Below, piece after piece: positions 1-17,600 of a stretch of 64,000 nucleotides of DNA (position 1 is its first letter; each line of letters opens with the position of its first letter). The notes beneath the pieces were generated by a model. The model was not told the origin of the DNA and ran no database searches. It saw only the letters and a list, made by a program, of their open reading frames with translations. This DNA comes from an uncultured Lachnospiraceae bacterium (GTDB lineage: Bacteria; Bacillota; Clostridia; Lachnospirales; Lachnospiraceae), in assembly GCA_947564735.1 (NCBI GenBank), contig CANOEC010000008.1, forward strand, positions 51,176-115,175. The letters are read 5' to 3'. The translations under genes and the position numbers were made by a program.

Positions 1-161
1 ATTCCCGCTCCTACTGGTGTCAAGTAATTGCTACAAATTTTTTCAAATATAATGCTATTGAAATGCGCATATAATATCGACTTCTGATAAATTATATGAT
101 GTAACCCCTTTTCTTACAGCATAACAAAACAACATGTCGCAGAACACAAAAGGGTTCTCCA

Positions 162-195
162 TTGACTTGACCCGAAACCTAATATAGAATATATA
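162..195 (+). promoter_or_regulatory. putative promoter of the cytosine methyltransferase gene
   Basis: TTGACT at 162-167 is followed after 17 bases by TAGAAT at 185-190. An overlapping pair, TTGACC 167-172 and TATATA 190-195, also has 17-base spacing. The start codon is at 226, with AAGGAGA at about 213-219 as ribosome binding site. Bases 1-160 are AT-rich and I see no other gene in them. Confidence 0.55.
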
Positions 196-225
196 TAACA
201 TATTTTCTTCCCAAGGAGAAATACA

Positions 226-1347
226 ATGGCATATAATAACATTGTCCCCACTGCCATAGATTTGTTCTGTGGTGCTGGCGGTTTATCAAAAGGACTTGAA
301 GACAGCAATATTAATGTAGCATTAGGCGTTGAAATCAACACTATTGCCACCCAGACATACAACAACAATCTGCCCGGCATTGTTCTGAATTCCAATATAT
401 GTGATGTCACAGGTCAACAAATCTTAGCACGGTTAAACATTCATAAAAATGAATTGTTTCTCCTTGCTGGTTGTCCACCTTGTCAAACATTTTCATCGCT
501 CCAAAAAGACGATGTATCAAATGATGCCAGAAACAACCTTATTTTTGAGTACACCAGACTTATCCATGAAACAGAACCATTGTTCATTCTAATGGAAAAT
601 GTTCCTGGTCTGCCAAATGGACGCGGCAAAAAAATTTTTAAAAAAGCCACTACTGAATTGCAAAAGCTTTACCATATAAAATATGATATACTCAATTGTG
701 CTGATTACGGTGTTCCCCAAACTCGAAAACGTCTGGTACTGCATGGAATCCGGAATGATGTATATGATTTGTTAAAGCAACACAATGCCCGTTTTGAAGT
801 CTCGCTTCCTTCTCAGACTCATACCAGCGACTCGGAAACAAATCCTACGCTCCTACCATGGGAAACTGTAGGTACTGCATTGGCTACACCACCACTTCCA
901 GATATTGCTGCCGGACAACCTGCACCTGCTGGCTATCCAAATCATGAAACAAGCGGACTTAACAATACAAACTTAGAACGCATTCAATATATCCGAGCCC
1001 ATGGTGGTAGCAGAACTTGTCTGCCTCCCCACTTACAATTACCTTGCCATCAAAGAGGAAACGTTGGTTACACTGGCGTATATGGAATTATGGATGCTAC
1101 TAAACCCGCACCGACAATTACAAGTGGATGTATATTTTTTAGTAAGGGGCGCTATGGACATCCTACACAAGATCGCGCTATTACAATTCGTGAAGCCGCT
1201 CGTTTCCAATCATTCCCAGATAATTTTATTTTCTCTGGAAACCGGTCAGAAGCTGCTTTGCAGGTCGGAAATGCAGTTCCGCCCCGCCTTGCCGCTGCCA
1301 GTGGATTTTATTTCTTAAATCTACTCAATTATATACATTCTCTATGA
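226..1347 (+). CDS. DNA (cytosine-5-)-methyltransferase (Dcm/type II-like)
   Basis: This 373-residue protein shows the ordered motifs of C5 cytosine methyltransferases: motif I DLFCGAGG at residues 12-19, motif IV GCPPCQTFS around 82-90 with catalytic Cys86, motif VI ENV at 124-126, motif VIII QTRKRL at 165-170, and motif X GNAVPP near residue 350. The family transfers a methyl group from S-adenosylmethionine to cytosine C5 in a short recognition sequence. Residues roughly 190-290 are the variable target-recognition region; the target cannot be read from sequence. The ATG follows AAGGAGA at good spacing. No recognisable restriction endonuclease lies beside it. Its stop is 4 bases from the stop of the convergent receiver-like gene, so the two units face each other. 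It could be a stand-alone regulatory methylase, but the context favours a defence-type module. Confidence 0.93.
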   Translation: MAYNNIVPTAIDLFCGAGGLSKGLEDSNINVALGVEINTIATQTYNNNLPGIVLNSNICDVTGQQILARLNIHKNELFLLAGCPPCQTFSSLQKDDVSNDARNNLIFEYTRLIHETEPLFILMENVPGLPNGRGKKIFKKATTELQKLYHIKYDILNCADYGVPQTRKRLVLHGIRNDVYDLLKQHNARFEVSLPSQTHTSDSETNPTLLPWETVGTALATPPLPDIAAGQPAPAGYPNHETSGLNNTNLERIQYIRAHGGSRTCLPPHLQLPCHQRGNVGYTGVYGIMDATKPAPTITSGCIFFSKGRYGHPTQDRAITIREAARFQSFPDNFIFSGNRSEAALQVGNAVPPRLAAASGFYFLNLLNYIHSL

Positions 1348-1351
1348 AACA

Positions 1352-2941
1352 TCAGTTTTTATTGGCTGGTGTTTCAGGCAGATGTGCCAACGATATTCCA
1401 ACTCTATTGCCATCCGCAAATGCCATATTAGCCATTCTTTGTGTATAATTTTCTTTCAGAGTACAGATAAACTCCAGTTCGCAATCTTTCCCCATTAGAT
1501 TTCCTTGTAATGTTCTTCCTTTAATTATCTTATAATCTAATATATAAATCGTATTCAGTTTCTTCTTCCATTCAACAGCAATAGATTTTTTATCTTCATA
1601 ATACAAAAAACTAAAATATTCTTTTTCTGCATTCTCTAGTGCTTTTCCACTCTTACACTTTATACCTCGAATGAAAATATAATTATTATTTATTTTTTCG
1701 GGCCTTCTACAATCACATTTTGCTGTTACACATAATAAATAGCATTCCTCATTTCCATCCTTATATTTGAATACATCCCCAAAAGAAATAGTATGGTTCA
1801 TATTAGAAAGTGTTCCATTAATATTTATCTTAGCATTAAGTTGTATCAAGTCATTAATGATTAAACTTGCAGTTATGCGATCTGCTCTTGCAAGCAATTC
1901 TTTTGCAAACAATTCAGGGATGAGAGCATTTTGTATGTCAATTTGCTGCTCCAATTCCTGCTTATATAGCCCTTTAATAAACAATTCAAACTCATCCCAC
2001 CCTTCCTCTTCTAACAAGATTTTCGCATAATATGCAAAAGCGTCAAATGAGATATCGCCAAGAATCTTTGCCCTATGCGTGAGTACCTCCTGAAATTGAT
2101 TAGAATAATACAAACATATCCCGTCCATGATACTTCCTGGTGATTCAATAATATTTTGCGCAATTTTAGATATAATATGCTCTGGTGAAATCATATCAGA
2201 TGTATCCTGTTCATTATTAAGATTTTTGGAAAAAAAGAAAAATTTTCTCCCATTCACCTCCAAGCCATTGCTTTTTTTATTTGCGACATATTCTCTTTCT
2301 GACGGCAAAAGATAACTACACCAATCTAAATATAACTTATACCACTCTTCAGAATTCTCATAATTGAATTGTTCCTGATCAATTTCAATACCGAGTTCAA
2401 TCATTTTCTTTTTCAGCGGTTGAATATTATTTTTTGAACCGCTAAAACATCCTTTTATAATATTTACAAATTCATCTTTTAAAATGCCTAGTTTTTCACA
2501 TATCTCCGAAATCTGTTTCACTTCTTCTTTGAAATGCCCAGAATAGTATGCTTTTAATGCATCCTCAATACCCTCTGTATTCTGTTCATTAGTATAAATG
2601 CAAATATAAGGAATCTCATTTTTCAATGCACAGTTAATGATACCTATTGTATATTCTGGGCGAACCGGCTGAGTCAGCTCCCAATCAATAATAAGTAAAT
2701 CTTTTTGCTTCATTTTTTTCTCTAAATATTCCCACGTATTTTTCAAATTATATGAAACCATTGTAACTGCACATTCACATTCTGTAGAAAGTGCTGTATA
2801 CATTCTACCAGACAATTCCAATCCCTTAGCATTACTATCTACCACCTCATATGGTTCCAGAAAATCATCATCAATACAAATAATATTTCTTATTGACTGT
2901 TTCACAATATCGCCTAAAATCTGCTCTTTTGTTTTTTCCAT
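1352..2941 (-). CDS. receiver-like protein paired with a GHKL ATPase
   Basis: This 529-residue protein has an N-terminal segment resembling a response-regulator receiver: an acidic triplet DDD at residues 24-26, a candidate phosphoacceptor Asp86 in LLIIDWEL, and a Thr at 117 in IYTNEQ. The remaining roughly 400 residues are not recognised and contain no helix-turn-helix I can see. The start ATG follows GGAG at 7 bases and lies 1 base after the stop of the upstream ATPase gene, so the two are almost certainly co-translated. Receiver-like domains of this kind are known next to Hsp90/MORC-type ATPases in predicted bacterial conflict systems. That link is from family knowledge; a signalling or effector role here is inference. 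Confidence 0.6.
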   Translation of the reverse strand: MEKTKEQILGDIVKQSIRNIICIDDDFLEPYEVVDSNAKGLELSGRMYTALSTECECAVTMVSYNLKNTWEYLEKKMKQKDLLIIDWELTQPVRPEYTIGIINCALKNEIPYICIYTNEQNTEGIEDALKAYYSGHFKEEVKQISEICEKLGILKDEFVNIIKGCFSGSKNNIQPLKKKMIELGIEIDQEQFNYENSEEWYKLYLDWCSYLLPSEREYVANKKSNGLEVNGRKFFFFSKNLNNEQDTSDMISPEHIISKIAQNIIESPGSIMDGICLYYSNQFQEVLTHRAKILGDISFDAFAYYAKILLEEEGWDEFELFIKGLYKQELEQQIDIQNALIPELFAKELLARADRITASLIINDLIQLNAKININGTLSNMNHTISFGDVFKYKDGNEECYLLCVTAKCDCRRPEKINNNYIFIRGIKCKSGKALENAEKEYFSFLYYEDKKSIAVEWKKKLNTIYILDYKIIKGRTLQGNLMGKDCELEFICTLKENYTQRMANMAFADGNRVGISLAHLPETPANKN

Positions 2942-2942
2942 T

Positions 2943-5876
2943 TCATTTCTCCATCTTTTGACTTATCACAAAACATGCACCATTTAAGGAATTAAGTAAC
3001 TTCTCATCCGTCGCATAAATATCCATATCAACTGAATTTAGACACTTACGCGCTAAATATAACCCAATTCCTCGTCCTGATGCTTTTTTAGTGTAAAATA
3101 GTTCAAAACACTTTTCCAATTCTGAATGTGACATCTTAGGACCAGAGTTTAATACTAAAACATCGCTATCTTTTACATCAATTTTAATTACCTTTTCTCC
3201 TTGTGCATATGCAACCCAATAAATGGCATTATTGACAACATTTAAAAAGACGGGAATAATAATAGACTCATAAGATTCTATTTTATAATCTATAAATCTC
3301 TCTGTACATATAAAAGAAATATCTTCTTTATCCATTATACTTTCATAAAAATTTATAATTGTTTCCCTAATAGCTTTTCCCGTAATTGATGTTTTAGTTC
3401 GCCGTGTTGTACGGTACATTGGCATTAGCATCTTATGATTCGATTCCAAGTGTTGAAATGAAATGCTAAGCGGCTTATATATTTCCTGCACGTTCTCATC
3501 TTTGACGGCTATGTTTTTCAAATCTCTTAGCGCAGATGCAATCTGAGCATACAATACATTAAACTGATGATCTATGACTTCTATCGCCATTCCTACCTGC
3601 GCCAACTCATAAAAAGTATCAATCTTCTTTACAAGCTGAATTTCCTTGCTCTTATACGCTCCCAGCAACTCACCATTTTGAGAATTGATAGAAATACAAT
3701 TCAATTGTTTCAAAAATGGTTCGTATACATCAACATACATATCACGAATTTTATCGACAGTAACATTCATACGATCTGTAATTTCTATTACATTTTCTTC
3801 TGTTATTTCCGTAATATGAAGACCTTGTGGCGCATATTCAAACAAACTTTCCTTATTCTCAAAAATCTTATTATCCACCTCATCACGTATTCGTTGAAAT
3901 TCAATTGAAATTCTTTCCAAAACAGCATAAAATTTATTATTCAATTCTTCTTCTACATTAAGGTAATTTTTCTTATATTCCTCCAATAAAATATTTTTCA
4001 GTGTATGCTCAGATGCCAATTTCTGGCTTTCTGACACCTTTTGTTCCAATCCATTTCTTTCGGCTTCATAATCATAAAGAAGGTCGCTTACGGAATCATT
4101 ACCGGAAAGAGTAATGTTTGATGGAATCTTGATTTTTAAGTCCACAATTTCTGACTTTAATCTGCTAAGTTTTTCTAAGATGTCTCTCTTATCAGAATCA
4201 ATAACTAAACTCTTTTCTATCTGCTCATTAAGTTTTCTCTTTATTTCATTAAATTCTACCTTTTTATCCGCAATCTTTGACCTGCTAGCTATGATTTCTT
4301 TGCGTATCTGAACTACTGCCTGATAATTTCTTTTCTTTTCCTCCTGAATTAACCTCTCTTGCTTTTGTTCTCTTTTCTTTTCCTCCAGAATGTCCTTTCT
4401 TTGTTGTGCTTGAGATCCATATTTATCAATAGCAATTTTTTTAAAAAATTCCACCAAAAGAAACTTCATTGCTCTATACGCGTCATTTGCAACAAATCCT
4501 TCCCTGCCGGATTTGTCAATCAACTTTTGATTTCCTTCTTTAGAAATTCCGACATATCCAAACATCTTACGATGACTAAAGTAATAATATCCTGCACCAT
4601 ATGATCGTCTCTTTTCAAATTCCAGGAAATCAAAATCTGTTCTTCCATAAGGAAGTACACGAAATCCATCTCGGTAAACATATAAACCACTGTATGTTTC
4701 GCCCTTATTCTCATACATATGCCATTTTTCAATATTCATAGTTGTATTATTTTGTGCCCCCTCCCAAAAAGCCATTTTTAATCTTAACCTTCCAGGAGAT
4801 GTTCTTGGCTTTTTTCTTGGAGCAAATGTATAGTTTTCTATTTTTCCCCATACTTTTATGTTGCCTTGGAAATTTCCAGATTCATCAAATTCGCCATCAA
4901 TCCAATTTTCACAATTTTCAAAATCTTCTTCATCAAAAAAATCTTTTAACTCTAAAAAATCATATTCATTTCCGTTTGATGTGTATATCTTAAAACTTGG
5001 CGATTCTTTCCAATCATTACCAAGAATCTCCCGTCTGTCCTCTATCAATGCCTTGTCAAATGGATTAAATAAGCCTGAAAGAGCTGATCTCACATATTTT
5101 GTCCGTTCAGACATTTCCTCACGATCCTCAATTAGATTGTCCTTCTGCTCATCCTCAAGCCAAATCAGTTCATCAATTGGATCAAATATCACGAAAAAAG
5201 TGCCATGCCCATAATGCTCAAAATGTTCTCTAATTCTATCGTATATTGCTTTAGGTATGCGATGATATTTTACCAAATCATCCATAATATCATTTTTTAG
5301 CTTCGAAAAATGCTCCCATGATTTGCTATCAAAATTTTTCATATATTGCTTCTGTAACCGTTTATAATGATTGTCCAAATCAGACAAATCATGAAATTCT
5401 TCTATAGGAACCTCAACCTCATCCAGATATAACTCATAATTTTCCATTGCCCGCCAATTCATAAATACCATCTGATACGGTTCCATCTGTTTCTTAGATA
5501 GCATAAGCATATGATTTCCAAGATAAGTTACAGACAATCTACCAATACCCTTTTCACCTAACGGTATACGCTCTTTCTTTCCAAAACGCTCTTCCACAGA
5601 TACTGTACACGTCATTATATCTCTTTTACTCTCTGTGCCTATCACAATCCACTTTTCCAGAATATCTGTCTTCCCCATTCCAAAGCCATCATCCGATATT
5701 GTAAATACATCTGATACCACGTCCTTATACCCCGATCTATAGAGAGCGGCATCTAGATAATCCCCATAGGCATCATAACCATTTTTCCACAATTCCGTAA
5801 TTGCTGTTGGTAAATCTGCAATTTGGTTTCTGCCGAGCAAATCAATTGCTCTGGCTTTTGTTCTAAAATTTGCCAT
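2943..5876 (-). CDS. large protein with two GHKL-type ATPase domains
   Basis: This is 977 residues from the chosen ATG at 5876, which follows AAGGAG; an upstream TTG would add 12 residues. The N-terminus is an Hsp90/MORC/MutL-type ATP-binding domain: E28 and N32 in ELWKNGYDAYGD, G1 box SDDGFGM around 61-67, and lid motif GEKGIGR around 117-123. The middle is long and charged, Glu/Lys-rich and probably coiled coil. The last 200 or so residues look like a histidine kinase: an H-box-like segment EVIDHQFN, an N-box VVNNAIYW, and a G-box region ASGRGIGLYLAR. It is translated with the receiver-like protein downstream. Such ATPases occur in predicted restriction-modification and MORC-like systems. 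Whether the C-terminal half is an active kinase is unknown. The AT-rich codon use differs from the core genes. Confidence 0.75.
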   Translation of the reverse strand: MANFRTKARAIDLLGRNQIADLPTAITELWKNGYDAYGDYLDAALYRSGYKDVVSDVFTISDDGFGMGKTDILEKWIVIGTESKRDIMTCTVSVEERFGKKERIPLGEKGIGRLSVTYLGNHMLMLSKKQMEPYQMVFMNWRAMENYELYLDEVEVPIEEFHDLSDLDNHYKRLQKQYMKNFDSKSWEHFSKLKNDIMDDLVKYHRIPKAIYDRIREHFEHYGHGTFFVIFDPIDELIWLEDEQKDNLIEDREEMSERTKYVRSALSGLFNPFDKALIEDRREILGNDWKESPSFKIYTSNGNEYDFLELKDFFDEEDFENCENWIDGEFDESGNFQGNIKVWGKIENYTFAPRKKPRTSPGRLRLKMAFWEGAQNNTTMNIEKWHMYENKGETYSGLYVYRDGFRVLPYGRTDFDFLEFEKRRSYGAGYYYFSHRKMFGYVGISKEGNQKLIDKSGREGFVANDAYRAMKFLLVEFFKKIAIDKYGSQAQQRKDILEEKKREQKQERLIQEEKKRNYQAVVQIRKEIIASRSKIADKKVEFNEIKRKLNEQIEKSLVIDSDKRDILEKLSRLKSEIVDLKIKIPSNITLSGNDSVSDLLYDYEAERNGLEQKVSESQKLASEHTLKNILLEEYKKNYLNVEEELNNKFYAVLERISIEFQRIRDEVDNKIFENKESLFEYAPQGLHITEITEENVIEITDRMNVTVDKIRDMYVDVYEPFLKQLNCISINSQNGELLGAYKSKEIQLVKKIDTFYELAQVGMAIEVIDHQFNVLYAQIASALRDLKNIAVKDENVQEIYKPLSISFQHLESNHKMLMPMYRTTRRTKTSITGKAIRETIINFYESIMDKEDISFICTERFIDYKIESYESIIIPVFLNVVNNAIYWVAYAQGEKVIKIDVKDSDVLVLNSGPKMSHSELEKCFELFYTKKASGRGIGLYLARKCLNSVDMDIYATDEKLLNSLNGACFVISQKMEK

Positions 5877-6122
5877 ACCATTTCCGCTCCTTATGGGATT
5901 GTTTCCCAACAACTATATCTACAAAAAAATTTTTCGAAAACTCTCTCAAAAATACCTTCTTATATCAATTGTATCAGAAAAAAGTTCTAATGAACAGAAT
6001 TTGTGCTATTTTATCAAAATTATACCAATTCCAGCGCAAGCGTCTAATCCCCAAAATATCTGATTCGAGTATTTCCAGTTCTATCATGGAACTCCATATT
6101 TCATTCCCGATTCCTCTTTCCA

Positions 6123-7901
6123 TTAACGCCGCATCGGCACCCGCACCGTAACCTTCGTATAGCAGCCCAATTTAGAATCAATTTCAATTCCGTACCTCTC
6201 TCCGAAACTCATGCGTATTCTGTCCTGTACATTCTTTAAACCGATTCCGTTACCCGCACCTCCGCTCGTCTCAATCTCACCCGCTATCTTTTTCCTCAGA
6301 CTTTCTACTTCTTCCTCGCTCATGCCCCTTCCAGCATCCGTAATCTCAATCATACAGTCTTCATCTCTTACGATACCCTTGATATAAATGTTGGTGTCTT
6401 CCGCAAGTTCCTCAATCCCATGGCAGATTGCATTCTCAACCACAGGCTGCAGCGACATTTTCGGAATCTCCTGCTTCAAGACTTCTTCCGGTATATTCAG
6501 GGACAGATAGATTTCATAATCAAAACGCAGGTTGATCAAAGCCAGATAATTCCTGATATATTCGATTTCTTCCTCTACGATCACATTGTTCGACACCCAT
6601 TTCATACTGTAACGAAGCAGGCTGCCAAGCGATGTGATTGCGTCCGAAATGGCATACTCCTCATCAATCTCCGCCATCATCTTAATTGACTCAAGCACAT
6701 TATAGATAAAATGAGCGTTAATCTGATTCTGCAGCGCACGAATCTGGGAGTTTTTTGCCAAAATCTCCCTGTCGATATTTTCCTTCATAAGCTGCTCGAT
6801 GTAATCCAGCATCTTATTGATCTGGATACCTAACTCTCCCATTTCATCGTTTCCGCAATTCTCAATCCTAACGCTTAAATCTCCCTTTTGTATCATACGT
6901 ATGGATTTTAAAATATCATAGAACTGCCGCAGAAGACGCGTCACAATATAATTGATCAGAAACGACAGTCCGATCATGATCACAATCATAATCGCAATAA
7001 AACTGCTCCGCATCCAAAACACATAATGTATGCTTTCCGAGATATTTTTGACAGACAAAAGCGCCCCCTGCATTTCACGAATATATAAATAGGAGACAAC
7101 AAGATGCTCCCTGCCTTGTTTCATATACTCCGTATGGATGCCGTCTTTCTCAAGCCCGTCTTCAATCAGGGCACGTACAAACTCCCCAGAAATTTCCTGC
7201 CCATTATCGCCAAAATACAGTTCACCCTCATCCGCAATAAAACAGCTCCACTCATCCGCAATATCCTCATACAGCATCGGAAACATGTTTTCCATTGTGA
7301 CCGCTGTCTCAATCACACCGATACGACCATTCTCATAATCCTCTACATTTGTTACCAGAGAAGCGATTGCCGTCACGCCGTAATCGTCAAACAGTTTATC
7401 CTGATAATTGTAATTCCAGCCAGCATAGTCCCTTTTCTTCGACCATTCCATTTTGTCCATGCGGGAATGGCTGTATAGAATCGGCATCATCTCCTGCACA
7501 TTGTCATTTACCGTGTAAACACGTACTCCATACAACAGCGTATTGTTATAGACAAGCCGTTCCAGTGATGCAATATCGGAATGGTAAAATTCCATCAATT
7601 CCGTGGTTTCCAACTTCTCCCTGCGGGCTGCTTTGGCAAGCATCTTCAGCAACGATTCATCATTCAGAAAGAATTGTGTCGTCATATTGATGGAATCAAT
7701 ATTCTTGCGAACATTATCTTCGCCGCGTTTCATGATATACTGCATATAATTTCTATTCTCACTGATCACATTCTGCTCCATATTGTAAAACAAAAGCCCC
7801 GCCAATATGGAAATCGGCATAATTACAAGAAGAATAATGACAAGCGTAAACTTTCTATTCAGTTTTAATCCGTTCCAGAATTTCTTCCAACGCTTTTCCA
7901 T
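6123..7901 (-). CDS. YesM-type sensor histidine kinase
   Basis: This 592-residue membrane kinase has a transmembrane segment near 18-40, an extracellular sensor region, a second segment near 298-320, a HAMP-like linker, and a HisKA_7TM/YesM-type dimerisation region with His397 in NAHFIYN. The ATP-binding core has N490 in VVENAICHG, a DAGRGM box near 522-527 and GNGIGL near 550-555. YesM kinases sense sugars, often through a solute-binding protein, and phosphorylate an AraC-type YesN regulator. No response regulator adjoins it. It starts 3 bases after the stop of the solute-binding protein gene and is probably translated with it. The family usually reads NPHF; here NAHF replaces it, which may still be functional. 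Confidence 0.9.
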   Translation of the reverse strand: MEKRWKKFWNGLKLNRKFTLVIILLVIMPISILAGLLFYNMEQNVISENRNYMQYIMKRGEDNVRKNIDSINMTTQFFLNDESLLKMLAKAARREKLETTELMEFYHSDIASLERLVYNNTLLYGVRVYTVNDNVQEMMPILYSHSRMDKMEWSKKRDYAGWNYNYQDKLFDDYGVTAIASLVTNVEDYENGRIGVIETAVTMENMFPMLYEDIADEWSCFIADEGELYFGDNGQEISGEFVRALIEDGLEKDGIHTEYMKQGREHLVVSYLYIREMQGALLSVKNISESIHYVFWMRSSFIAIMIVIMIGLSFLINYIVTRLLRQFYDILKSIRMIQKGDLSVRIENCGNDEMGELGIQINKMLDYIEQLMKENIDREILAKNSQIRALQNQINAHFIYNVLESIKMMAEIDEEYAISDAITSLGSLLRYSMKWVSNNVIVEEEIEYIRNYLALINLRFDYEIYLSLNIPEEVLKQEIPKMSLQPVVENAICHGIEELAEDTNIYIKGIVRDEDCMIEITDAGRGMSEEEVESLRKKIAGEIETSGGAGNGIGLKNVQDRIRMSFGERYGIEIDSKLGCYTKVTVRVPMRR

Positions 7902-7904
7902 CTT

Positions 7905-9536
7905 CTAATCAATTCCCAGCTTCTCTTTTGCCGTCTTCATAAGTTCCGTCTTCGCCGCCTGCACCTCTTTAAATCCATACGCTTCCCTCTTCTCTTGAAA
8001 TTGTTCCAGAATTTCATCAAAACGTTCCTCCGACTCCGCAAGCAGAAGCTGCGGAAGCGTCTCGCTCCATAGCGCCTCGATTCTGTTATCCTCAAAGGCT
8101 TCTTTTGAACCGTTTGGAAGGAGCGAATCGTATTGTCCGTTGTAAACCGGATAAAGATACGACCATTCATAAATCTGTCTTAGCGGTTCCGAAGGTTCCT
8201 GTTTCCACTGCAATTGCACGATATCATTCTGAAGCATCCAATAGGCATCATCCGCACCATATATTCTGTCATACTCCGTACGGTCACTGTTTAAAAGTTC
8301 TTTGACTTCTTCTTTTATAATCGGTTTACCGTCTATATAATCAAATGTCTCTCCCTCTACGCCGATTGAAACGCGAAGCTGTCCTCGCTCGCTGAGCAGA
8401 TAATCAAAAAAAGCAATGGCGCGCTCGGGATGCTCACAATTCTTTGATATCATTGTGACAGTCCAGCCGTTGATTCCGGTTGTCGTAAGCGTATGGTCGT
8501 CTCCCGCCGCATTCTTCGGTCCGTCTACCGCCAGATAAATCCGCTCTGGATGGCTGGCATAAAGTTCTTTCTGCTGTGCCGCCATGTCCGTATGCTGATA
8601 AATCATGCAGAAATACCTGCCCTTTGCCATCTTTTCTTCCATCTGCGTTCTCTGATCAATAAAAATATCGTTGGCAAGCAGCCCTTCCTCGCCAAGCCTG
8701 CGGAACATCTTAAGCCATCTGATATAATCTTCATCCGTATAGCGGTCATAAATCTCGCCGTCTTTCTCGAAAGGCACTGCCAGAAAATTCATCAGATATT
8801 TGTCAAAGGACACATTCCCCTGTCCATTAAAAACATGCGCACCCACCGGAATCAAATCTTCTCCGTCCACAGTCGGGAACATCTCATATGCTTTTTCCAC
8901 CGCCGCCTGAAAACCTTCCGGCGTCGTCATGTCCGGACTTCCGATTGCCTCGTATATATCTTTCCGCACCAGAAATGTCTGGTTGGAACCAATATTATCA
9001 TACTCCTCTATATCCTTTGCACTGTAACTGGAATTCGGATAAATATAAATATTGCCGTCTTCCTGCGTATACCATTTGACCGCATCCGCATCGCATACCT
9101 GATAAAAATACGCATCATACTCATCCGCAAGTTCATTCAGCGCATAAACCATGTCTTTATCAATCATCTCATTGACCTGCGGTTCCCACCAGCCAAGTGT
9201 AATAAAATCCGGTAAAGAATCCGCCGCTATCAATGCGTTAAGTTTCTCGCTTTCGTTTCCGCTCGGCGTGATGAACCGCAGACTTACACCTGTCTCCTCC
9301 GTAATCTTGCGGGAGACAACATTCTCTCCCCACCCGGTCGTAAACCATGAATAGTTGATATACCAGTCAAACGTAACAGGTTCCTTGGCATATCTTTCCC
9401 ATGCCGGCACATCTTCCGCCATGCCCGATTCCGTACCCTGCAATGCCCCATCGTCTCTTGCACATCCTGTACAAAGCAGACACATAAAAAGCCAGACTGC
9501 CATCCGATAGATTATTCTCTCATTCCTCTTCTGCAT
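7905..9536 (-). CDS. solute-binding lipoprotein, accessory to the sensor kinase
   Basis: This is a 543-residue lipoprotein from the ATG at 9536. It has a short signal with lipobox-like LLCTGC, then a type I/II extracellular solute-binding fold with residues typical of carbohydrate ABC binding proteins (ITEETGVSLRF, LNALIAADSLPDFIT). An ORF extension to 9710 exists, but the internal ATG has an AGG-rich site and begins a clean signal peptide. It has its own promoter at 9585-9613 and is directly coupled to the YesM-type kinase, so it may deliver ligand to the kinase as much as to the permeases upstream. The ligand is unknown; the locus suggests a glucooligosaccharide. Confidence 0.82.
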   Translation of the reverse strand: MQKRNERIIYRMAVWLFMCLLCTGCARDDGALQGTESGMAEDVPAWERYAKEPVTFDWYINYSWFTTGWGENVVSRKITEETGVSLRFITPSGNESEKLNALIAADSLPDFITLGWWEPQVNEMIDKDMVYALNELADEYDAYFYQVCDADAVKWYTQEDGNIYIYPNSSYSAKDIEEYDNIGSNQTFLVRKDIYEAIGSPDMTTPEGFQAAVEKAYEMFPTVDGEDLIPVGAHVFNGQGNVSFDKYLMNFLAVPFEKDGEIYDRYTDEDYIRWLKMFRRLGEEGLLANDIFIDQRTQMEEKMAKGRYFCMIYQHTDMAAQQKELYASHPERIYLAVDGPKNAAGDDHTLTTTGINGWTVTMISKNCEHPERAIAFFDYLLSERGQLRVSIGVEGETFDYIDGKPIIKEEVKELLNSDRTEYDRIYGADDAYWMLQNDIVQLQWKQEPSEPLRQIYEWSYLYPVYNGQYDSLLPNGSKEAFEDNRIEALWSETLPQLLLAESEERFDEILEQFQEKREAYGFKEVQAAKTELMKTAKEKLGID

Positions 9537-9842
9537 GAAAAACCTGCCTTTCCACTCCGCCCCTATCAAGAATATATTAATAACAGTATAGGGCTTTTTC
9601 TTTGTGATTTCAATGTGGTTCGTATATTGTCCGCCCGGAAGTCGGTCGATATCTCCGTCGTCGCGCCTGCACTCCGCTAATGAAAACCATACAAACAGCA
9701 TTTCCCACACAGAGAAAAGACGATATTTCCTTAAAGAAATACCGCCTTTCTTTTATGTTTGCTCTATCTTCTTACCTAACCACCATAATTCCGCCATGCG
9801 AAACCCAAAATTCACACGGAGAATGCCCTATTTGGGGGCATT
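9537..9842. other. intergenic region between permease and accessory binding protein
   Basis: This 306-base gap holds a good minus-strand promoter (9585-9613) and a small hairpin directly after the permease stop: AATGCCC at 9822-9828 and GGGCATT at 9836-9842, without a clear T tract. I see no gene in it. Confidence 0.6.
9585..9613 (-). promoter_or_regulatory. promoter for accessory binding protein and kinase
   Basis: On the minus strand TTGAAA (9608-9613) is followed after exactly 17 bases by TATACT (9585-9590). The start codon at 9536 lies about 50 bases downstream. This makes the binding protein and kinase pair an independent transcription unit. Confidence 0.65.
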
Positions 9843-10676
9843 CTATTCCTTAACGCTCCCCGCCGAAATACTGCTGATGATATATTTCGAGCAGAAACAG
9901 AATACGATTAGGATCGGCACTACCGAAATCGCGACGCCCAGATAGATTGCTCCCTGATTCTTCTGTAAGTCCGTCGCCGCATTCAGTGTGGTGATCATGA
10001 CCGGCAGCGTCATCTTATCCGGCGTATTGAGCAAAATGAGTGGCACCAGATAGTTGTTCCAGTTTCCGATAAATCCACCGATTGACATGGTAGCGATACC
10101 GGGAGCCATGATTGGAAGAACAATTCTGTGGAAAATATGTAACTCGCCCGCACCGTCAATCCGTGCCGCCTCCAAAAGCGCCTTGGAGAGTGTCGCCTGC
10201 ACATACTGCCTTAAGAAGAACACCGTACCGGGTGAAGCAATTGCAGGCAGAATCAGCGGAAGATATGAATCCACCATGTGCAGTTTCTGACACAGGTTAT
10301 AAAAACCGATCAGGCTAAGCTGTGCCGGAATCATCATAAATACCACGATGATCTTGAACAGCCATGCACTGCCCTTAAAGCGGTAAACCGCCATGGCATA
10401 TGCCGTGATCGATGAAAAGTATGCCGTCAGTATCGTCGCCGGAATAGCGACGATAAGGCTGTTTCCGAAACCTCTGAACAGATTGACATAGTCAAATAAT
10501 GCAATCCAGTTTTCCTTTAAGTTTCTGCCGGGTATCAACGTAAAGGAATGCGTAATCTCTACGCCGCTTCTCGTAGCGTTTACAATCATCAACAGAAACG
10601 GAAGGAAGCACATTATTCCAAGCAGGATTAAGCATACATAAATGATTCCTCTTTTTATCTTCGTTGCCATTGCCAT
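9843..10676 (-). CDS. carbohydrate ABC transporter permease (MalG-type)
   Basis: This 277-residue protein has six predicted transmembrane segments and the permease EAA loop EAARIDGAGELHIFHRIVLP near residues 165-185, which contacts the cytoplasmic ATPase. It is the MalG/LacG-type partner of the upstream permease. The ATG comes 1 base after the upstream stop and shares its GGAGG site, so the two are translationally coupled. No transport ATPase is encoded in the locus; a shared MsmK-type ATPase elsewhere is the usual arrangement in this group of bacteria. Confidence 0.92.
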   Translation of the reverse strand: MAMATKIKRGIIYVCLILLGIMCFLPFLLMIVNATRSGVEITHSFTLIPGRNLKENWIALFDYVNLFRGFGNSLIVAIPATILTAYFSSITAYAMAVYRFKGSAWLFKIIVVFMMIPAQLSLIGFYNLCQKLHMVDSYLPLILPAIASPGTVFFLRQYVQATLSKALLEAARIDGAGELHIFHRIVLPIMAPGIATMSIGGFIGNWNNYLVPLILLNTPDKMTLPVMITTLNAATDLQKNQGAIYLGVAISVVPILIVFCFCSKYIISSISAGSVKE

Positions 10677-10677
10677 A

Positions 10678-11601
10678 TTAATCTTCCTCCTTCCCTATCG
10701 TCTTAAACTGGATAATCGACACGATCAGGATAATAAAGAACAATGTATAGGCAATTGCCGAAGCATACCCAACCTGATGTGTTTCAAAACCGAATTTATA
10801 CAAATACATAACCACTGTCTGCAGGCTTCCCGCCGGCTCTCCTGCAGTTCCCGGCGCAGCGCCATTCATAAGAAACGGCAAGTCGAAAAGCTGTAATCCG
10901 CCGATTAGAGAAGTTACGAAAACATACAGCATAATCGGTCGAAGAAGCGGCAGAGTAATCTTTGCGAATACTTTCCATCTGCCCGCGCCGTCAATCGCAG
11001 CCGCCTCAAAATAGTCCTTCGGAATACCCTGTACACCCGCCATCAGCATGATGAATGAATTGCCGAACCACATCCATGCACCGAGGACGGAAATGACATA
11101 GGGCGCCGTTGCGGTTGAGCCCAGCCAGTTGACCTGCTGCTGTGTAATACCTAACCCCATGAGAATCTGATTAAAGCTTCCGTACTTCCAATCCAACAAT
11201 GTTTTAAACAAAAATGCCACAGACGTCGCCGCAATCAAGTTCGGCAGATAATAAACCGCCCTAAATACCGCAAGTCCGCGAATCTTATATTTGATATCAC
11301 TGAAAATCACCGTGAGCAGGAACGCAAGTCCCAGCTGAAGTATAATGTTCACGCCCCAAATCTTAATCGTATTTAAAAGATCTCTCCAGAAGAATTTATC
11401 TTTCACGACTCTCACATAATTATCAAGTCCCGCCCATGTCGGGTCTCCATAACCTTTGTAATTCATAAAACTTAAATAGAATGTCCGCAATACCGGATAA
11501 ACACTGAATACAAGGAAAACAATGATAAAAGGTAACACGAACAAATATGCTATACGATTAATATCTCTTTTTTTCGTCTTTACTGCACTTGTTTTTGCCA
11601 T
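10678..11601 (-). CDS. carbohydrate ABC transporter permease (MalF/UgpA-type)
   Basis: This 307-residue inner-membrane permease has six predicted segments and the EAA loop EAAAIDGAGRWKVFAKITLP. The start has GAGGAGG 5 bases upstream. It pairs with the MalG-type permease that follows and is preceded by the main binding-protein gene, from which it is separated by strong hairpins including an intrinsic terminator. It probably imports an oligosaccharide used by the intracellular GH30 and phosphorylase enzymes of the same locus. Confidence 0.93.
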   Translation of the reverse strand: MAKTSAVKTKKRDINRIAYLFVLPFIIVFLVFSVYPVLRTFYLSFMNYKGYGDPTWAGLDNYVRVVKDKFFWRDLLNTIKIWGVNIILQLGLAFLLTVIFSDIKYKIRGLAVFRAVYYLPNLIAATSVAFLFKTLLDWKYGSFNQILMGLGITQQQVNWLGSTATAPYVISVLGAWMWFGNSFIMLMAGVQGIPKDYFEAAAIDGAGRWKVFAKITLPLLRPIMLYVFVTSLIGGLQLFDLPFLMNGAAPGTAGEPAGSLQTVVMYLYKFGFETHQVGYASAIAYTLFFIILIVSIIQFKTIGKEED

Positions 11602-11613
11602 ATTTCCCTCCTC

Positions 11614-11658
11614 AAAAAAACGAGCAAGCTCGTTTGCGAGATTCGCTTCGCGAACTCG
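11614..11658 (-). terminator. intrinsic terminator plus adjacent hairpin between binding protein and permeases
   Basis: Read on the minus strand, AAACGAG, a CTTG loop and CTCGTTT form a 7-bp stem that runs into a T tract (stem 11618-11635, T run down to 11614). Just upstream lies a second stem, CGAG-TTCGC/GCGAA-CTCG (about 11637-11658). Confidence 0.6.
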
Positions 11659-11687
11659 AAAAAACGTAACGATTTTCTATAAAGGGT

Positions 11688-11710
11688 GGGGGCAGTCATC
11701 TGCTGCCCCC
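11688..11710 (-). terminator. GC-rich hairpin downstream of the binding protein gene
   Basis: GGGGGCAG at 11688-11695 pairs with CTGCCCCC at 11703-11710, 16 bases after the binding-protein stop. No clear T tract follows, so it may be an mRNA 3' stabiliser working with the terminator at 11614-11658. Confidence 0.5.
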
Positions 11711-11725
11711 TCCTCCTACAATTCA

Positions 11726-13189
11726 TTATCTGTTAACCGTAATCTCCGGATATGTAGATTCTATTACATCGTAGAACTCAGCCAGAGCTTCCTCTTTTGT
11801 CTTCTCACCTGTCTTGATGGAAGTTGTTGCGCTTGCCCATGCATCGCCGATAGCCTTATCGTATCTGGTTACCTTGGAATAATCGATTCCCTTTGCCTGT
11901 TCAAGCCAGAACTTGTATAACTGCTGTCCGCCGTATACAGAGTTCGGATCCTCAGCATGCGCTTCCAATACAGGAATCAGAGATACGGTATCACCTTCGG
12001 AAACCTCGATCCACCAGTTTGATGTCTCCTCATCTAACGTGCAGAACTTCAGGAAATCCCACGCTAAATCTTTTCTTTCGGACTGTGAAGAAATACCGAT
12101 GAATGTACCGCCGCCAAATCCATAAGCCGGTCCTGCACATACACCCCATTTACCGGAAGTATCCTGTACGTTATCTCTCATGGTAAGTACGCCCCATGAA
12201 GGAAGACCGAATGCAAATACCTCTGTTTTATCCATGCCCTCTGTTGCCTCTGCAAACTGCTCTGCATCCCATACATTTACGGAATCATCTGCATAGTTCT
12301 GAATATCTGCGGAAAGGATCGGCACCTCTCCTGCCATTGCCTGATACCAAGGTGTGGACCACTGATTTGCATAGGCTGTCAGATCATCCTGATATAAGGA
12401 AACACAGAGATCCTGATAGTCATATCTGCCCTGATCCACATTCAGAACACCATCGATAACCCATGCCGAGTCACCGGAGAAATAACTGATTTCCGCATCG
12501 GAAGCAAAAATACGATAACCTTTGCTCTTTAATTTCTGAGCTGTATCCAAAATTGTCGGATAGTCTGCAAATAATTTGCCGATTTCATCCGGATCCTCTG
12601 TTCCAAATACTTCCTGTGCAATGTCTCTTCTATAATAAATTCCTGCCGGAGTAATCTGGTAAGAGATCGCTCTCTGAATGCCGTCTGCGTCCTGACCTAC
12701 TTCCCAGACATAATCCACAATCTGGTCTGCATAGTCCTGTGCGTTGTAGGGCGCCTGATTCAAATCCTCGAAATATCCTGCATCGTAGAAATCTTCCAGC
12801 ATCTGCGGCTCACCTACGATAATATCAGGCTCTTTCTGTCCGCCGTTTAATGCTGTCTGAACTTTGGTCACATAGTTGGCGGGCTCAATGACTACTGTTT
12901 CAATCGCAACATCAGGGTGTGACTCCATATAATGTTCTGCAAATGTCTCCAGATCCTTAGCAAGTGTCCAGACAACTAACTTCTCTCCTGCCGCCGAGGC
13001 TGTATCTCCTGATGCGCTCTCATCATCTGATGCGCCCTCATCTCCTGCCGCTGCTTCCGAAGAAGCGCTGCCGCTGTCTGCGTTGCTGTTACTGCCCGAA
13101 CTGCTTCCTGAGCCGGATCCGCCACATGCCGTCAATCCGAATACCATGGTTCCGGCAAGCATGATTGCCATAAGTTTCCTCAATTTCAT
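11726..13189 (-). CDS. main carbohydrate-binding lipoprotein of the ABC importer
   Basis: This 487-residue lipoprotein has signal MKLRKLMAIMLAGTMVFGLT ending in an LTACGG lipobox, then a Ser/Gly/Asp/Ala-rich linker to about residue 65, then a type I extracellular solute-binding fold (EKLVVWTLAKDLETFAEHYM). The start has AAAGGAGG. It is first in its unit and is followed by terminator-like hairpins before the permeases, which would give more binding protein than permease. It captures an oligosaccharide outside the membrane; the ligand is inferred to be a beta-glucan fragment from the adjoining enzymes. Confidence 0.92.
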   Translation of the reverse strand: MKLRKLMAIMLAGTMVFGLTACGGSGSGSSSGSNSNADSGSASSEAAAGDEGASDDESASGDTASAAGEKLVVWTLAKDLETFAEHYMESHPDVAIETVVIEPANYVTKVQTALNGGQKEPDIIVGEPQMLEDFYDAGYFEDLNQAPYNAQDYADQIVDYVWEVGQDADGIQRAISYQITPAGIYYRRDIAQEVFGTEDPDEIGKLFADYPTILDTAQKLKSKGYRIFASDAEISYFSGDSAWVIDGVLNVDQGRYDYQDLCVSLYQDDLTAYANQWSTPWYQAMAGEVPILSADIQNYADDSVNVWDAEQFAEATEGMDKTEVFAFGLPSWGVLTMRDNVQDTSGKWGVCAGPAYGFGGGTFIGISSQSERKDLAWDFLKFCTLDEETSNWWIEVSEGDTVSLIPVLEAHAEDPNSVYGGQQLYKFWLEQAKGIDYSKVTRYDKAIGDAWASATTSIKTGEKTKEEALAEFYDVIESTYPEITVNR

Positions 13190-13273
13190 AAAATGTTCCT
13201 CCTTTTTTCTTTCAACTCTTTTCTCATGTTGTCTTTGTTGTTTGTTGATAACTTGATTATAGATAGATATTCA

Positions 13274-13312
13274 TTTGGTTATAATGTCTCAAATTTTACA
13301 AAGGTATCATTT
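13274..13312 (-). promoter_or_regulatory. putative activator box upstream of the binding protein gene
   Basis: AAGGTATCATTT (13301-13312, plus strand) is identical over 12 bases to the element at 20614-20625 upstream of the phosphorylase gene. A TATAAC (13278-13283, minus) lies at promoter distance but without a good -35, as expected for an activator-dependent promoter. Both units belong to the same pathway. Confidence 0.4.
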
Positions 13313-13314
13313 TT

Positions 13315-14646
13315 TTAGTAGCAGATTGTATGAATAGAATGAGGGGATAATACTGTCTCTATTCCACATCCTGCCTCTCTTACCGTCACAGGCGCCTCCT
13401 TTTCGGTCTTATTTAACAAAACAAGAACTCTCTCCCCATCAGGATTCAAAAATGCCGCCGCTTCCACAGTATCGCTGTAGCGCGTTGTACCAATCCTCAC
13501 GGCGCCCGGCTCGATATAGCGGCTGAAGTGCCCGATATAATAGTAGGACAAGCGTTTTTCATAGGAATTGTTTTCCGTATCACACATAATCGGGGCTGCG
13601 CAGAAGTTACCGACATGATTCGGTCCGCCCTTTACATCCAATAACAGATTCCAATCTAGCGATGCGCTAATTCCTGCATTCAAATTACCCAGAATATCAT
13701 GTGCATACATCTCCGCTTTTTCAACTTCGCCCGAATCGGCAAAACGAGAACACTCGACACATCCTTCCGTAAAGAATACTTCTTTATCAGGATACTGCTT
13801 ACGAATCAATTCAACAGCCTCGAAATGATCTCCCGTATACCAGTGCACCGCAGCACCACTGACATATTTCCGTGTCCTGCCGTCCTCAACGATTTCCTTA
13901 AAACGCTGATACGCCTCTTCCTTGTTATGATCCCATACAAAGATACCGATATCGGAAAGTCCCGCTTGCTCCAACGCCGGTCCCAGATACTCACGGACAA
14001 ACAGAGCCTCTTCCTCCGAAGTATAGATGCATGAATCCCACGTCTGTACCGCCATCGGCTCATTTTGCACCGTCAAAAATCCGATTGATATTCCTTCTTC
14101 CTTATAAGCTTTGATAAACTTCACAAAATACTCTGCCCAAGCCGCATAATATTCCTTCTTAAGCTTTCCTCCATGGTTCATCTCACCGTTTGTTTTCATG
14201 AAAGCCGGCGGTGACCACGGAGAAACCAGAAATTCCATCTTACCTGCACATTCTGCCTGCGCTGCTCGAACCATCGGTATAATCTGCGCACGGTCATGCT
14301 CGATTGAAAATGTCTTTAACTTCGCATCGCCATCCTCCACATACGTGTAATTACCCAGCGCGAAATCACAACTGTTCATATGGAGCCTTCCGAAGTGATA
14401 CCGAAGTCCCGCTTCTCCAAAATACGCTGTCATGAGTTCTTTTTGCTTTTCTTCATCCATACCCGCATAATTATGTGCGGCGCTTTCGGTAAATGCTCCG
14501 CCAAATCCGCGTACTTTCTGATAAGTCACATCCGGATATAGATTGATCACATGCATACAGTCCTGTACTTTCCCGGCTTCATGTATGGTCTCCTCCCAGA
14601 ATTTTCCGGAATGATAATCTGTAATAATTTCTCTGATTTTTTCCAT
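13315..14646 (-). CDS. cytoplasmic glycoside hydrolase family 30
   Basis: This 443-residue protein has the GH30 pattern: substrate region VRGFGGAFTESAAHNY near 45-60, acid/base Glu196 in TVQNEP, nucleophile Glu294 in FFTEGC. There is no signal peptide, so it acts on imported oligosaccharides. GH30 enzymes are retaining beta-glycosidases such as glucosylceramidase-like beta-glucosidases and beta-1,6-glucanases; the subfamily cannot be fixed by eye. Its place in front of the importer and behind two phosphorylases suggests it trims beta-1,6 linkages or branches from glucooligosaccharides. The start has GAGGG at suitable distance. It is 39 bases after the phosphorylase gene. Confidence 0.88.
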   Translation of the reverse strand: MEKIREIITDYHSGKFWEETIHEAGKVQDCMHVINLYPDVTYQKVRGFGGAFTESAAHNYAGMDEEKQKELMTAYFGEAGLRYHFGRLHMNSCDFALGNYTYVEDGDAKLKTFSIEHDRAQIIPMVRAAQAECAGKMEFLVSPWSPPAFMKTNGEMNHGGKLKKEYYAAWAEYFVKFIKAYKEEGISIGFLTVQNEPMAVQTWDSCIYTSEEEALFVREYLGPALEQAGLSDIGIFVWDHNKEEAYQRFKEIVEDGRTRKYVSGAAVHWYTGDHFEAVELIRKQYPDKEVFFTEGCVECSRFADSGEVEKAEMYAHDILGNLNAGISASLDWNLLLDVKGGPNHVGNFCAAPIMCDTENNSYEKRLSYYYIGHFSRYIEPGAVRIGTTRYSDTVEAAAFLNPDGERVLVLLNKTEKEAPVTVREAGCGIETVLSPHSIHTICY

Positions 14647-14685
14647 AATTAATCCCTCATGCCTTTCCTAAATCTTCCTATCTCC

Positions 14686-17600
14686 CTATCCAAGCTGAAT
14701 CTCAATCCGTTCCACCCTTCTGGCACGGATATCTTCTGCAAGCTTCCCACTGATAAACTCCGCATTCACATCAACCTCGCTTTTGTTCTTATAGATGAAA
14801 TGCATGTTTTCAATCGTATACTCTCCCGGTACATAGTCTTTCTTCTCCTGCATCCGGTACTCCACGGCAATCTCGCCTAACATGACCGCGCAAACGGTCT
14901 TTGTTTCCGGAATCAGATATTTCGGAATCGCCGGTCTTGGTGCAAAGACAAGTTCACCGTTTTTCAGAGTAAATAGATTTTTCCCGAACATCATCAGCTT
15001 CCACATACTGATAAACTCGATTGTAGAACCGGACAGCCTCGCCACAAATCCCTTGCCGTGAATCTTTTCATTCGGATTCCTGCTGCTTGCAATAAAAGAA
15101 GAATTCTCATAGATGCTTCTCCCGTATATTTCCGAATCAAGAAACGGAACCGCAGCCTTATGGAAATCATCAAAGAACTCCTCATACATGCCGCTTCTTA
15201 ACAGTTCCAGCAAATATTTGTACTCCATATGCAGCCAGATTGATTCATTCTCCAGCCAGCCCGGCGTAAACGCCCGTGCCCTGCCAAGCTCATAGGAAGT
15301 GCTTTCCAAGGAAGCGTTCACCTTATACATGGACAGTTTTCTATCATACAATTCACTATCCTTCACATTCTCATACAGTTTCCGCTTTGTATCCTGCGGC
15401 AGATCCAGCTTCAGATAACGCACAGGACCTTCCAAGAATGCCGGAATGCACCTTACTTCAAACCGGAGCGGATAGATGCCCTCCTGTCTCTTCTCATATT
15501 CCGGCACCTCATATGAGAAATATGTGGGACAGATGCCTTCTCCATAAGCACACGCCTTATCGATTCCGTGTGCAACAGCCTTCTCCCATTCCTTCAATAC
15601 CACCGCAAGTTCCTCACTGCGATAACTTTTCTTCTCGCCGGAAATTCCATCAAAGACCTTGTCACGATACAATTCCTTCACATCATTGATGCGATTCCAG
15701 AACGACAGTACTTCCCCTCCACCCATAAGATGATCCTTTTCCAGACGCACAATCAGCTGCAGTTCATCGATAAAATTACCTAGCTCCTCCGTCACCGCCA
15801 CGTCCGCCGGATATTTTTGCAGTGCGCAAACCGTATAGTGAAGCATCCGCGCCAGCTCATATGTCTCCGCCATAGAAGAACCGAAAACACCCGGTAATCC
15901 GTTTAGGGCGTCATACCAGCCCGGTTTTCCTCCTTCCATCTCGATACCCATACCATAGGCGTCTAATGTGGCAAATTTTGTGGCGCATAACAGGAGCAGT
16001 TTTTCCATCAAAGTTACATATACCACTTCTCCCTTTCCAAACTGCGCCCGAACCAACTTCTCTTCAGTGTCTCGCTTGCTCTTTTCATTGAGCGCATGAT
16101 ACTGGCGGAGCCCGTTTTCGGTCTCTTCATAGCGTTTTACACGGTGGTTGATATTCACTTGTGAAAGAAAATAAGTGTAATCCTCCTCATAGAGCATTTC
16201 CCGTTCCTTCTCAGGATTGATCTCCAGATAATCCTCAATCAGATCGAGATTGTAAGTCCAATGGTCACTCCAATAACCTTCGCCGAATTTCCCATTCACC
16301 ATACTGTCAGCAAAGTCGATGATCTGATAGAAAAACGATTCTTTCCACTCACCCAGCACATCGTCTAACTTCGCCCACAATGCGCCCGGCGTAAACGGAA
16401 TGTCCACAAAGGCAAGGAGTTCTTCCTTCACCGCCTCATCCATTCCACTAAACAGTGCTGTCGCCTTTTCCCGACCCAGCCTGTAAGTAAGTTTCTCTAC
16501 CCCTAACGGATTGTAGCCGTCTAACTGAATCAAACTGTAAAATTCCTTGATATTCTCCCTGCCTACAAATGGCGCGAAGAATGTGTCACAGCGGCGGTTC
16601 TGGTTCACGTCACGGAAATTACCGTTGCCCTGTGAGAAAAATTCCGGCAGCATGGAAAAATAATTGTAATCCCGTTCCAGATCACCGTGTTTTCTGGAAT
16701 ACACATAATACAACTTGTTGTTACCAAGAGGCAGCGGATAGCCGCCGCGAAGTATGTTATCCATATAAGTATACCGGCAGTAAATGTCAAAACTCTCCGA
16801 AGCAGTTTTCGTCGCAATTCCACTGCAAAGCTCATCTATAAGACTTTCCGCCTCTTCCCGTTTCTCTTCAAAATAAGCCCCGTCTTTCCTCTCCTCCATG
16901 AACAGCTTTAAGATTTCTTTTTTCTTCACCTGTCCGACAACTTCATAAATCGTTATGGTTTCTTCCGGCGCCAAGGCTCTCTGTGTGCCGTAGAAACTGC
17001 ACGGTAGAAGATTCGTGGTAATCTGCTTTTGCGCATATACGTTATCGATTCCCCCCTCTGCGAAACAGACCGCTGTCTGAAGAGAACAGTCATACGAGAA
17101 AACGACATCTGTGTCAACAATGGGTTTAAGCGGTGTCCCATCTTCAACACAGCCAAAAGAAAAATTTCCTCCTTCTATCGCGCGTACCGCCGCACTGTCA
17201 TCCATGCTCGCACGCACACGATAAAACGGTACATTCTCCTCCAAATCTTCCACCTGCATCCACGCCTTTGCTGTCTGCGTCATATTTTTCATGCTGTCGG
17301 TTTCCACCCCATAGGGAATCAGTGCGGGCATACCGTCCAAAATCTCCAGTGAAATCTCCTTGTCGTCCTCGTTCGTCACCGTCACCTTTCTGACAAGCGC
17401 CCCAACCTTTTCCCCCGGCAGAGTAAAATAATCTACCTGCGTGAGCAGCTTTTCCGCCTCATTCCTCTCCTGTATGGACAGCCTGTTCATTCCAATCTCC
17501 ATCTCCTGCCTCAGGCTTTCGTCCGAGAAACATTCCATATACCTGCCGTCTTTTCTCAAGAATGTGCGGAACCCCGTCCGCTTTACATTCTGATAAGCCA

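Follow-up and report, generated by a model that had tools for sequence, protein, structure and literature searches.

A mobile trio of HEF_HK kinase-like protein, Response_reg_2 protein and C5 methyltransferase in an uncultured Lachnospiraceae bacterium, tentatively read as a phosphorelay-controlled defence system

What is the function of three closely packed genes that lie at the left end of a 64,000-nucleotide stretch of contig CANOEC010000008.1 (GCA_947564735.1; this whole stretch is hereafter the window) from an uncultured Lachnospiraceae bacterium? A C5-cytosine DNA methyltransferase (methylase; 226..1347, + strand, 373 aa; PF00145, E value 2.3e-61) is convergent with a Response_reg_2 receiver-like protein (regulator; 1352..2941, − strand, 529 aa; PF19192, E value 8.4e-16, 59 bits against a Pfam cut-off of 27), and their stop codons are separated by 4 bases. 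After a gap of 1 base follows, on the same − strand, the gene of a HEF_HK sensor-kinase-like protein (kinase; 2943..5876, 977 aa; PF13589, PF19191, and PF02518), which starts at an ATG preceded by AAGGAG; a TTG at 5912 offers an alternative start in the same open frame. These coordinates and gaps agree to the base with a sequence-only reading of the same DNA, which proposed that methylation marks self DNA and that the kinase and regulator respond to unmodified DNA or to infection. Our best guess, built on sequence comparison and predicted structures and held tentatively, is that the trio is a mobile three-gene system providing a phosphorelay-controlled, methylation-marked defence.

By domain content, the trio is a member of a published class, the HEF_HK/Response_reg_2/C5-methylase modules. 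In the kinase, HEF_HK (81.9 bits, cut-off 24.1; E value 4.6e-23) is flanked by an N-terminal HATPase_c_3 (37.7 bits, cut-off 25; E value 2.5e-09) and a C-terminal HATPase_c (38 bits, cut-off 26.4; E value 2.5e-09), and the descriptions “dual GHKL” and “receiver-like” given from the bare sequence are borne out by these matches and by that to Response_reg_2. The pair and its linkage to C5 methylases were described by Bellieny-Rabelo et al. (2021; PMC8011034), with 91.6% linkage over 644 regions, an association with C5 methylase and Vsr, and restriction-modification domains overrepresented near the receiver gene; a probable descent from paraMORC was given for this cytoplasmic two-component-like system, whose control of restriction-modification was speculated. 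The possibility of a new class was rejected, because that paper already describes both the pair and its link to methylases. The window shares with the published modules both Pfam domains, the predominant HATPase_c_3, HEF_HK, and HATPase_c architecture, the adjacent receiver, and the C5 methylase neighbour (a frequent rather than obligatory feature of the class, found here at 4 bases), but it differs from them in its insertion as a trio alone, with a convergent methylase and without a Vsr or endonuclease gene. What is new is the trio-only insertion with its empty sites, the tally of relatives, the viral and Escherichia coli carriage, the kinase model, and the fold likeness of the regulator barrel. 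No experiment on the HEF_HK/Response_reg_2 module was found among literature titles and abstracts, subscription papers and preprints lying outside that search.

The conserved co-occurrence that the sequence-only reading named as a check was found among close relatives. A kinase profile built from the window and three plasmid trios retrieved 226 relatives from GTDB contigs, and since the 80 loci kept are the best-scoring of these, the tally speaks for close relatives. In 76 of the 80, profile searches place the regulator gene next to the kinase gene, after it and in the same orientation; in the other four (L014, L055, L063, and L069), the contig stops in or just past the kinase gene. Broken genes were counted as present (a kinase in two open reading frames [ORFs] in L061 and L090, a receiver in two in L053 and the viral L149). 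Of the 80 relatives, 76 have a C5 methylase gene no more than 7 kb from the kinase: in 68 it is immediately upstream in the same orientation (at most 300 bp away), in L082 it is 405 bp upstream, and in 7 it is downstream on the opposite strand, with that of L073 5.3 kb away. In three of the four loci without it (L013, L014, and L056), a contig end truncates the locus. The fourth, L021, has no C5 methylase within 2.5 kb up to the contig end or 8 kb down; at 5386-10217, its pair is followed by a 995-aa protein with adenine-methylase features (a methylase motif seen by eye in the translation and a match to a PDB adenine methylase at an E value of 1.8e-4), and N6_Mtase was matched by 1 of the 37 downstream neighbours scanned. 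This single case is possibly a swap of the marking enzyme.

In 70 full trios, the pairwise distance rank correlations were 0.91 for kinase and regulator, 0.83 for kinase and methylase, and 0.81 for regulator and methylase, with a permuted maximum of 0.19. Within one clade of 42, the corresponding values were 0.89, 0.59, and 0.63, which indicates that the methylase is the looser partner. Among 299 same-family genomes, receiver and kinase were each present in 2, the window's own and G676, and a methylase at an E value of 1e-50 in 4; identity of the latter was 100% in the window's own genome and 64% in G676, and two genomes without the pair hold methylases of 48% and 45%. The methylase and the pair of G676 lie at the ends of different contigs, one of which (G676:C41) is, judged by length and content, the contig of L013, and this genome demonstrates co-presence rather than adjacency. 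The regulator is the sole Response_reg_2 match at an E value of 0.001 in the window's own genome (4.5 Mb, 102 contigs), and a search of 398 genomes of the phylum set returned no other genome. Since the same trio recurs across phyla, its assembly is not due to chance, and as judged from these comparisons, the three genes are kept and moved together as a unit. A methylase found regularly without the pair, and the pair without any methylase, with no enrichment in defence islands, would have spoken against a common system; close relatives did not show this, because their three genes behave as a unit.

The setting of the trio in the window also points to mobility. The DNA from 8 to 6098 forms an inserted segment between yesM (6123-7901, − strand), to its right, and yesN (− strand), which starts at the window's left edge; we take these names to denote the sensor and the AraC-type regulator of a sugar ABC operon. 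The insert is about 6.1 kb long and carries the trio alone. Its G+C content is 34.5%, compared with 41.1 to 49.9% for 6.1-kb stretches sampled at 500-base intervals across the remaining window. The AT-rich DNA and the locus boundary noted from sequence both proved real, the boundary being this insertion between yesM and yesN. An 11-bp direct repeat, TTTCATTCCCG, flanks the insert, with one copy at 6099..6109 (+ strand) and the other crossing the window's left edge (4 bases outside and positions 1-7); either target duplication or short-homology joining would leave such a repeat. A search of 61 same-genus genomes with the yesM protein gave 13 matches at an E value of 1e-100, the window's own included. 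In all 10 regions fetched from the 12 others (5.6 to 13.5 kb each), the junction is empty: yesM is followed by yesN, with aligned ends 13 to 148 bp apart, and no match to the trio proteins was found at an E value of 1e-15. The insert contains no fourth ORF of more than 118 aa; hence, no recombinase of its own is evident, and no inverted repeat was seen by eye at its ends. In the window's genome, yesN is split by an in-frame stop (L002 18506-20000 in the left part of the contig, plus window 1-2), and in a same-genus relative (L104 1848-3341), it is one open frame.

Elsewhere, the trio travels with viral and island DNA. All three genes are present in 13/18 viral-contig relatives, two of which (L148 and L149) are near-identical and look like one element. 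The other five lack a complete trio: in L156, L157, and L160, the contig ends within the kinase gene, and L158 and L159, like the plasmid loci L009 and L010, have a distant kinase with no receiver match. A scan of 50 neighbours of the viral trios (of 95 in frame) gave 4 integrase matches and, for other genes, matches to repressor, portal, and terminase families, consistent with trios that sit in prophages. The phage-borne trio of L154 had no match among named phages, and single-sequence scans of the viral contigs gave no lead. In E. coli, the SE15 trio was matched at at least 99% identity in 231/5426 genomes; the match reached 80% of its length in 205 genomes and fell short of this in 26. Among the matches listed, one copy has an IS1 inside the kinase gene, and the two weakest consist of a 419-bp piece from the 3′ end of the receiver gene. 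In the two E. coli genomes inspected, the trio shares its island with a MobH relaxase and with a gene for a tyrosine recombinase, which has a frameshift in one of them; the SE15 island begins at a tRNA-Leu. A gene annotated “phosphorothioated DNA-binding restriction endonuclease” follows the receiver gene in both. In E. coli NCCP 13983 (L167 3288-5536), the one of the two weakest matches that was inspected, the methylase gene, the kinase gene, and all but the last 419 bp of the receiver gene have been lost together, beside an IS1, and the endonuclease gene is kept; this one deletion suits a block loss of the trio and an endonuclease independent of it. Carriage on viral contigs and islands fits a role in defence.

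The overall architecture of the kinase, according to its AlphaFold2 model (mean pLDDT of 82.2), is a MORC/Hsp90-type ATPase, a long helical linker, and a histidine kinase core. The N-terminal module (residues 5-493; 4398..5864, − strand) combines GHKL and S5 folds, a MORC/paraMORC feature. It is followed by a coiled-coil-like helical linker (residues 491-733; 3678..4406, − strand; from the predicted secondary structure) and by the kinase core (residues 734-977; 2946..3677, − strand), in which the DHp with HEF_HK precedes the catalytic domain. The putative phospho-donor His770 (3567-3569) is invariant in 80/80 kinase rows, and Asn879 and Asn883 of the core are kept in 79/80, with one gap. MORC and paraMORC ATPases were linked to restriction-modification operons by Iyer et al. 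(2008; PMC2292703, known from excerpts), and the window kinase shares with them the N-terminal GHKL and S5 parts as well as the methylase and, in relatives, Vsr neighbours; where the proteins in those excerpts have a nuclease or TIR domain, it has a histidine kinase core; its partner is a receiver protein, and no helicase gene lies in the insert. The GHKL-Shedu protein VcSduA, with a paraMORC3-like GHKL N terminus, also shares the ATPase module; the anti-phage activity reported in the excerpted account belongs to VcSduA (PMC12137116), whose PD-(D/E)xK nuclease is fused, whereas the output of the window trio is a separate receiver protein.

The regulator, modelled with a mean pLDDT of 90.9, combines, by alignment, all the phospho-acceptor residues with a conserved C-terminal barrel that no Pfam family matched. 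Its receiver fold, with a helical insertion, covers residues 16-240 (2222..2896, − strand). The predicted phospho-acceptor Asp86 (2684-2686) and Asp24 are each kept in 79/79 rows, position 25 is Asp or Glu in 77/79, and Lys239 is invariant. A helical middle part (residues 253-380; 1802..2185, − strand; AlphaFold2 secondary structure) leads to the β-barrel (residues about 383-515; 1397..1795, − strand), which displays a C-x4-C-D motif (1712-1732) with Cys409 in 79/79, Cys404 in 75/79, and Asp410 in 74/79. The best fold match of the receiver part is the response regulator PorX. PorX is a receiver with a large non-DNA-binding effector of the phosphatase type, and in its place the window regulator has the barrel with the C-x4-C-D motif. 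The best Foldseek row from the PDB for the regulator is 1ub4_A (MazEF; E value 0.011, probability 0.99, TMt 0.54), which we infer to align to the barrel, so that the barrel weakly resembles MazF by fold only. A MazF homologue by sequence is unsupported by Pfam and by profile comparison: PF02452 (MazF/PemK) did not match the regulator at E values up to 1 or its C terminus up to 10, it was not among the families listed (25 of 40) for 53 regulator C-terminal domains, and the invariant Arg of 15 MazF sequences has no counterpart in the barrel by eye. In these searches, any likeness to the MazF/PemK toxins is confined to a possibly shared barrel fold, with no detected sequence similarity. No DNA-binding output family was found in the regulator by sequence. 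The VIA-align list was dominated by the receiver domain and hardly probed the C terminus; no viral model reached an E value below 0.001 (the row at rank 10 is named endoribonuclease), and searches against phages and plasmids gave no lead.

The methylase appears catalytically intact from its alignment, since Pro85-Cys86-Gln87, Glu124-Asn125-Val126, Gln165, Arg167, and Arg169 are 100% conserved in 80 rows. It alone among the trio matches PADLOC, with generic models, the best being the type II methylase model PDLC03378 (E value 1.3e-87). An identity with Druantia or DISARM was rejected, because the methylase matches those models as many type II methylases do and the insert holds no other large gene; an orphan methylase present by accident was ruled out by its co-occurrence with the pair.

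A defence mechanism compatible with these parts can be outlined. The methylase would mark host DNA; the ATPase module would clamp DNA and respond to its state (unmethylated, entering, or damaged), and we infer, as the sequence-only reading did, that the pair may detect unmodified DNA. This response would drive autophosphorylation at His770 and then transfer to Asp86 of the partner, and the phosphorylated regulator would free its C-terminal domain, leading to a block of the invader or a stop of the cell. Given the MazF-like fold, that domain perhaps acts on RNA. A linked nuclease gene, where present, may supply an added effector or a restriction partner. If this holds, two-component signalling, MORC ATPases, and DNA methylation would be joined in one defence mechanism. 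In the window, the published class takes a minimal form, a mobile unit of three genes, and the E. coli version, covering at least 80% of the trio in the 205 genomes, makes it testable in laboratory strains. A bolder form, which we consider unlikely, would make it the first immune system based on a His-Asp phosphorelay, in which a MORC-type clamp senses unmarked DNA, the MazF-fold C-x4-C-D barrel stops growth, and nucleases are optional; were it true, MORC-based silencing would have a bacterial relative in the trio, with a clamp that signals instead of compacting.

The genes that accompany the trio in relatives bear on two other explanations. We scanned 37 downstream and 32 upstream genes, selected among the closest neighbours (at most four per locus), and the resulting family counts give no member names: Vsr 6, HNH_2 6, AAA_15 5, and NOV_C 3 downstream, and Vsr 9 upstream. 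PADLOC models matched downstream included HNH, Vsr, HEC-04, and Old, as well as PDC-S36 for L015. A varied nuclease or ATPase gene thus often follows the trio in relatives, and none does in the window. In the main rival, the pair is a regulator of restriction-modification that responds to a cytoplasmic cue by adjusting the methylase and a linked nuclease; we consider it unlikely. It was suggested by the 2021 authors, and it gains from the restriction-modification domains that they found near the receiver gene (PMC8011034), from the 6/37 HNH_2 and 6/37 Vsr counts and from the endonuclease gene in the two E. coli islands, but the window insert has no nuclease gene, the regulator lacks a recognizable DNA-binding output, and the endonuclease gene outlived the trio in the NCCP 13983 deletion. 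That the trio is ordinary type II restriction-modification, with the endonuclease elsewhere or lost here and the pair accessory, seems rather improbable. The type II model is the methylase's best match and relatives have linked nucleases; however, because the nearby genes vary (HNH_2, NOV_C, an OLD-like AAA ATPase, Vsr, and others), the pair rather than any single nuclease is the constant partner, and a cognate endonuclease is missing from the insert, the rest of the genome not having been searched for one.

The Vsr counts (6/37 downstream and 9/32 upstream) also raise the possibility of a methylation-linked DNA repair or mismatch module, in which a MutL-like ATPase would work with Vsr outside defence. 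The MORC/MutL-type ATPase of the kinase is in line with it, but the insert has no Vsr-sized extra gene, and to our knowledge, a phosphorelay has no place in mismatch repair; this alternative is very unlikely.

Returning to the phosphorelay-controlled defence, the proposal made from sequence alone stands in part: unit behaviour and viral or island carriage favour it, and several observations weigh against it. The window locus is a sugar-uptake operon, not a defence island, and no PADLOC-DB 2.0.0 family matched the kinase or the regulator at E values up to 0.001. In the C-terminal DxGxG box (3135-3152, residues 909-914), the first Asp is replaced by Asn in 62/80 rows, including the window's, and is Asp in 17. 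This Asn, present in most rows, could affect how the kinase core uses ATP and leaves kinase activity uncertain. The MazF likeness is weak, with the Foldseek E value given above and an hhalign profile comparison probability of 0.7%. The last 419 bp of the receiver gene, encoding the barrel, persist alone in NCCP 13983, which, if they are expressed, speaks weakly against a free toxin. Given the HNH_2 and NOV_C genes downstream, the actual effector of some loci could be a nuclease. The distance correlations show only rare reshuffling, since co-inherited genes correlate anyway. For the seven regions of the pair that were tested, partial correlations with the methylase recognition region were 0.13 to 0.24; none stood out, and a target-site-reading region within the pair was rejected as a candidate on this ground. 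Finally, L011, from a Phocaeicola plasmid, holds a methylase and a 105-aa piece of the kinase start, with no receiver match.

The sequence-only reading had also pointed to the absence of a restriction endonuclease, and in addition to the insert with its lack of further large ORFs, none was seen by eye among ORFs of at least 100 aa in the 20 kb to the left, where no family search was made. Rfam and tRNA scans of the window gave no match. Three other kinases match a PADLOC type II enzyme model over the ATPase domain only. A family of about 600 aa directly follows the receiver gene in five relatives (L017, L022, L024, L062, and L067), and the five downstream genes that match AAA_15 and HEC-04 are presumably its members. 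On the plasmid of L010, the region 7971-16447 contains a shorter kinase relative, a hypothetical protein, AbiE-type genes, Vsr, a cytosine methylase, and a second ATP-binding gene, possibly a defence cluster. To the right of the insert, the window (6123-64000) carries, by eye, genes for sugar uptake and polysaccharide breakdown.

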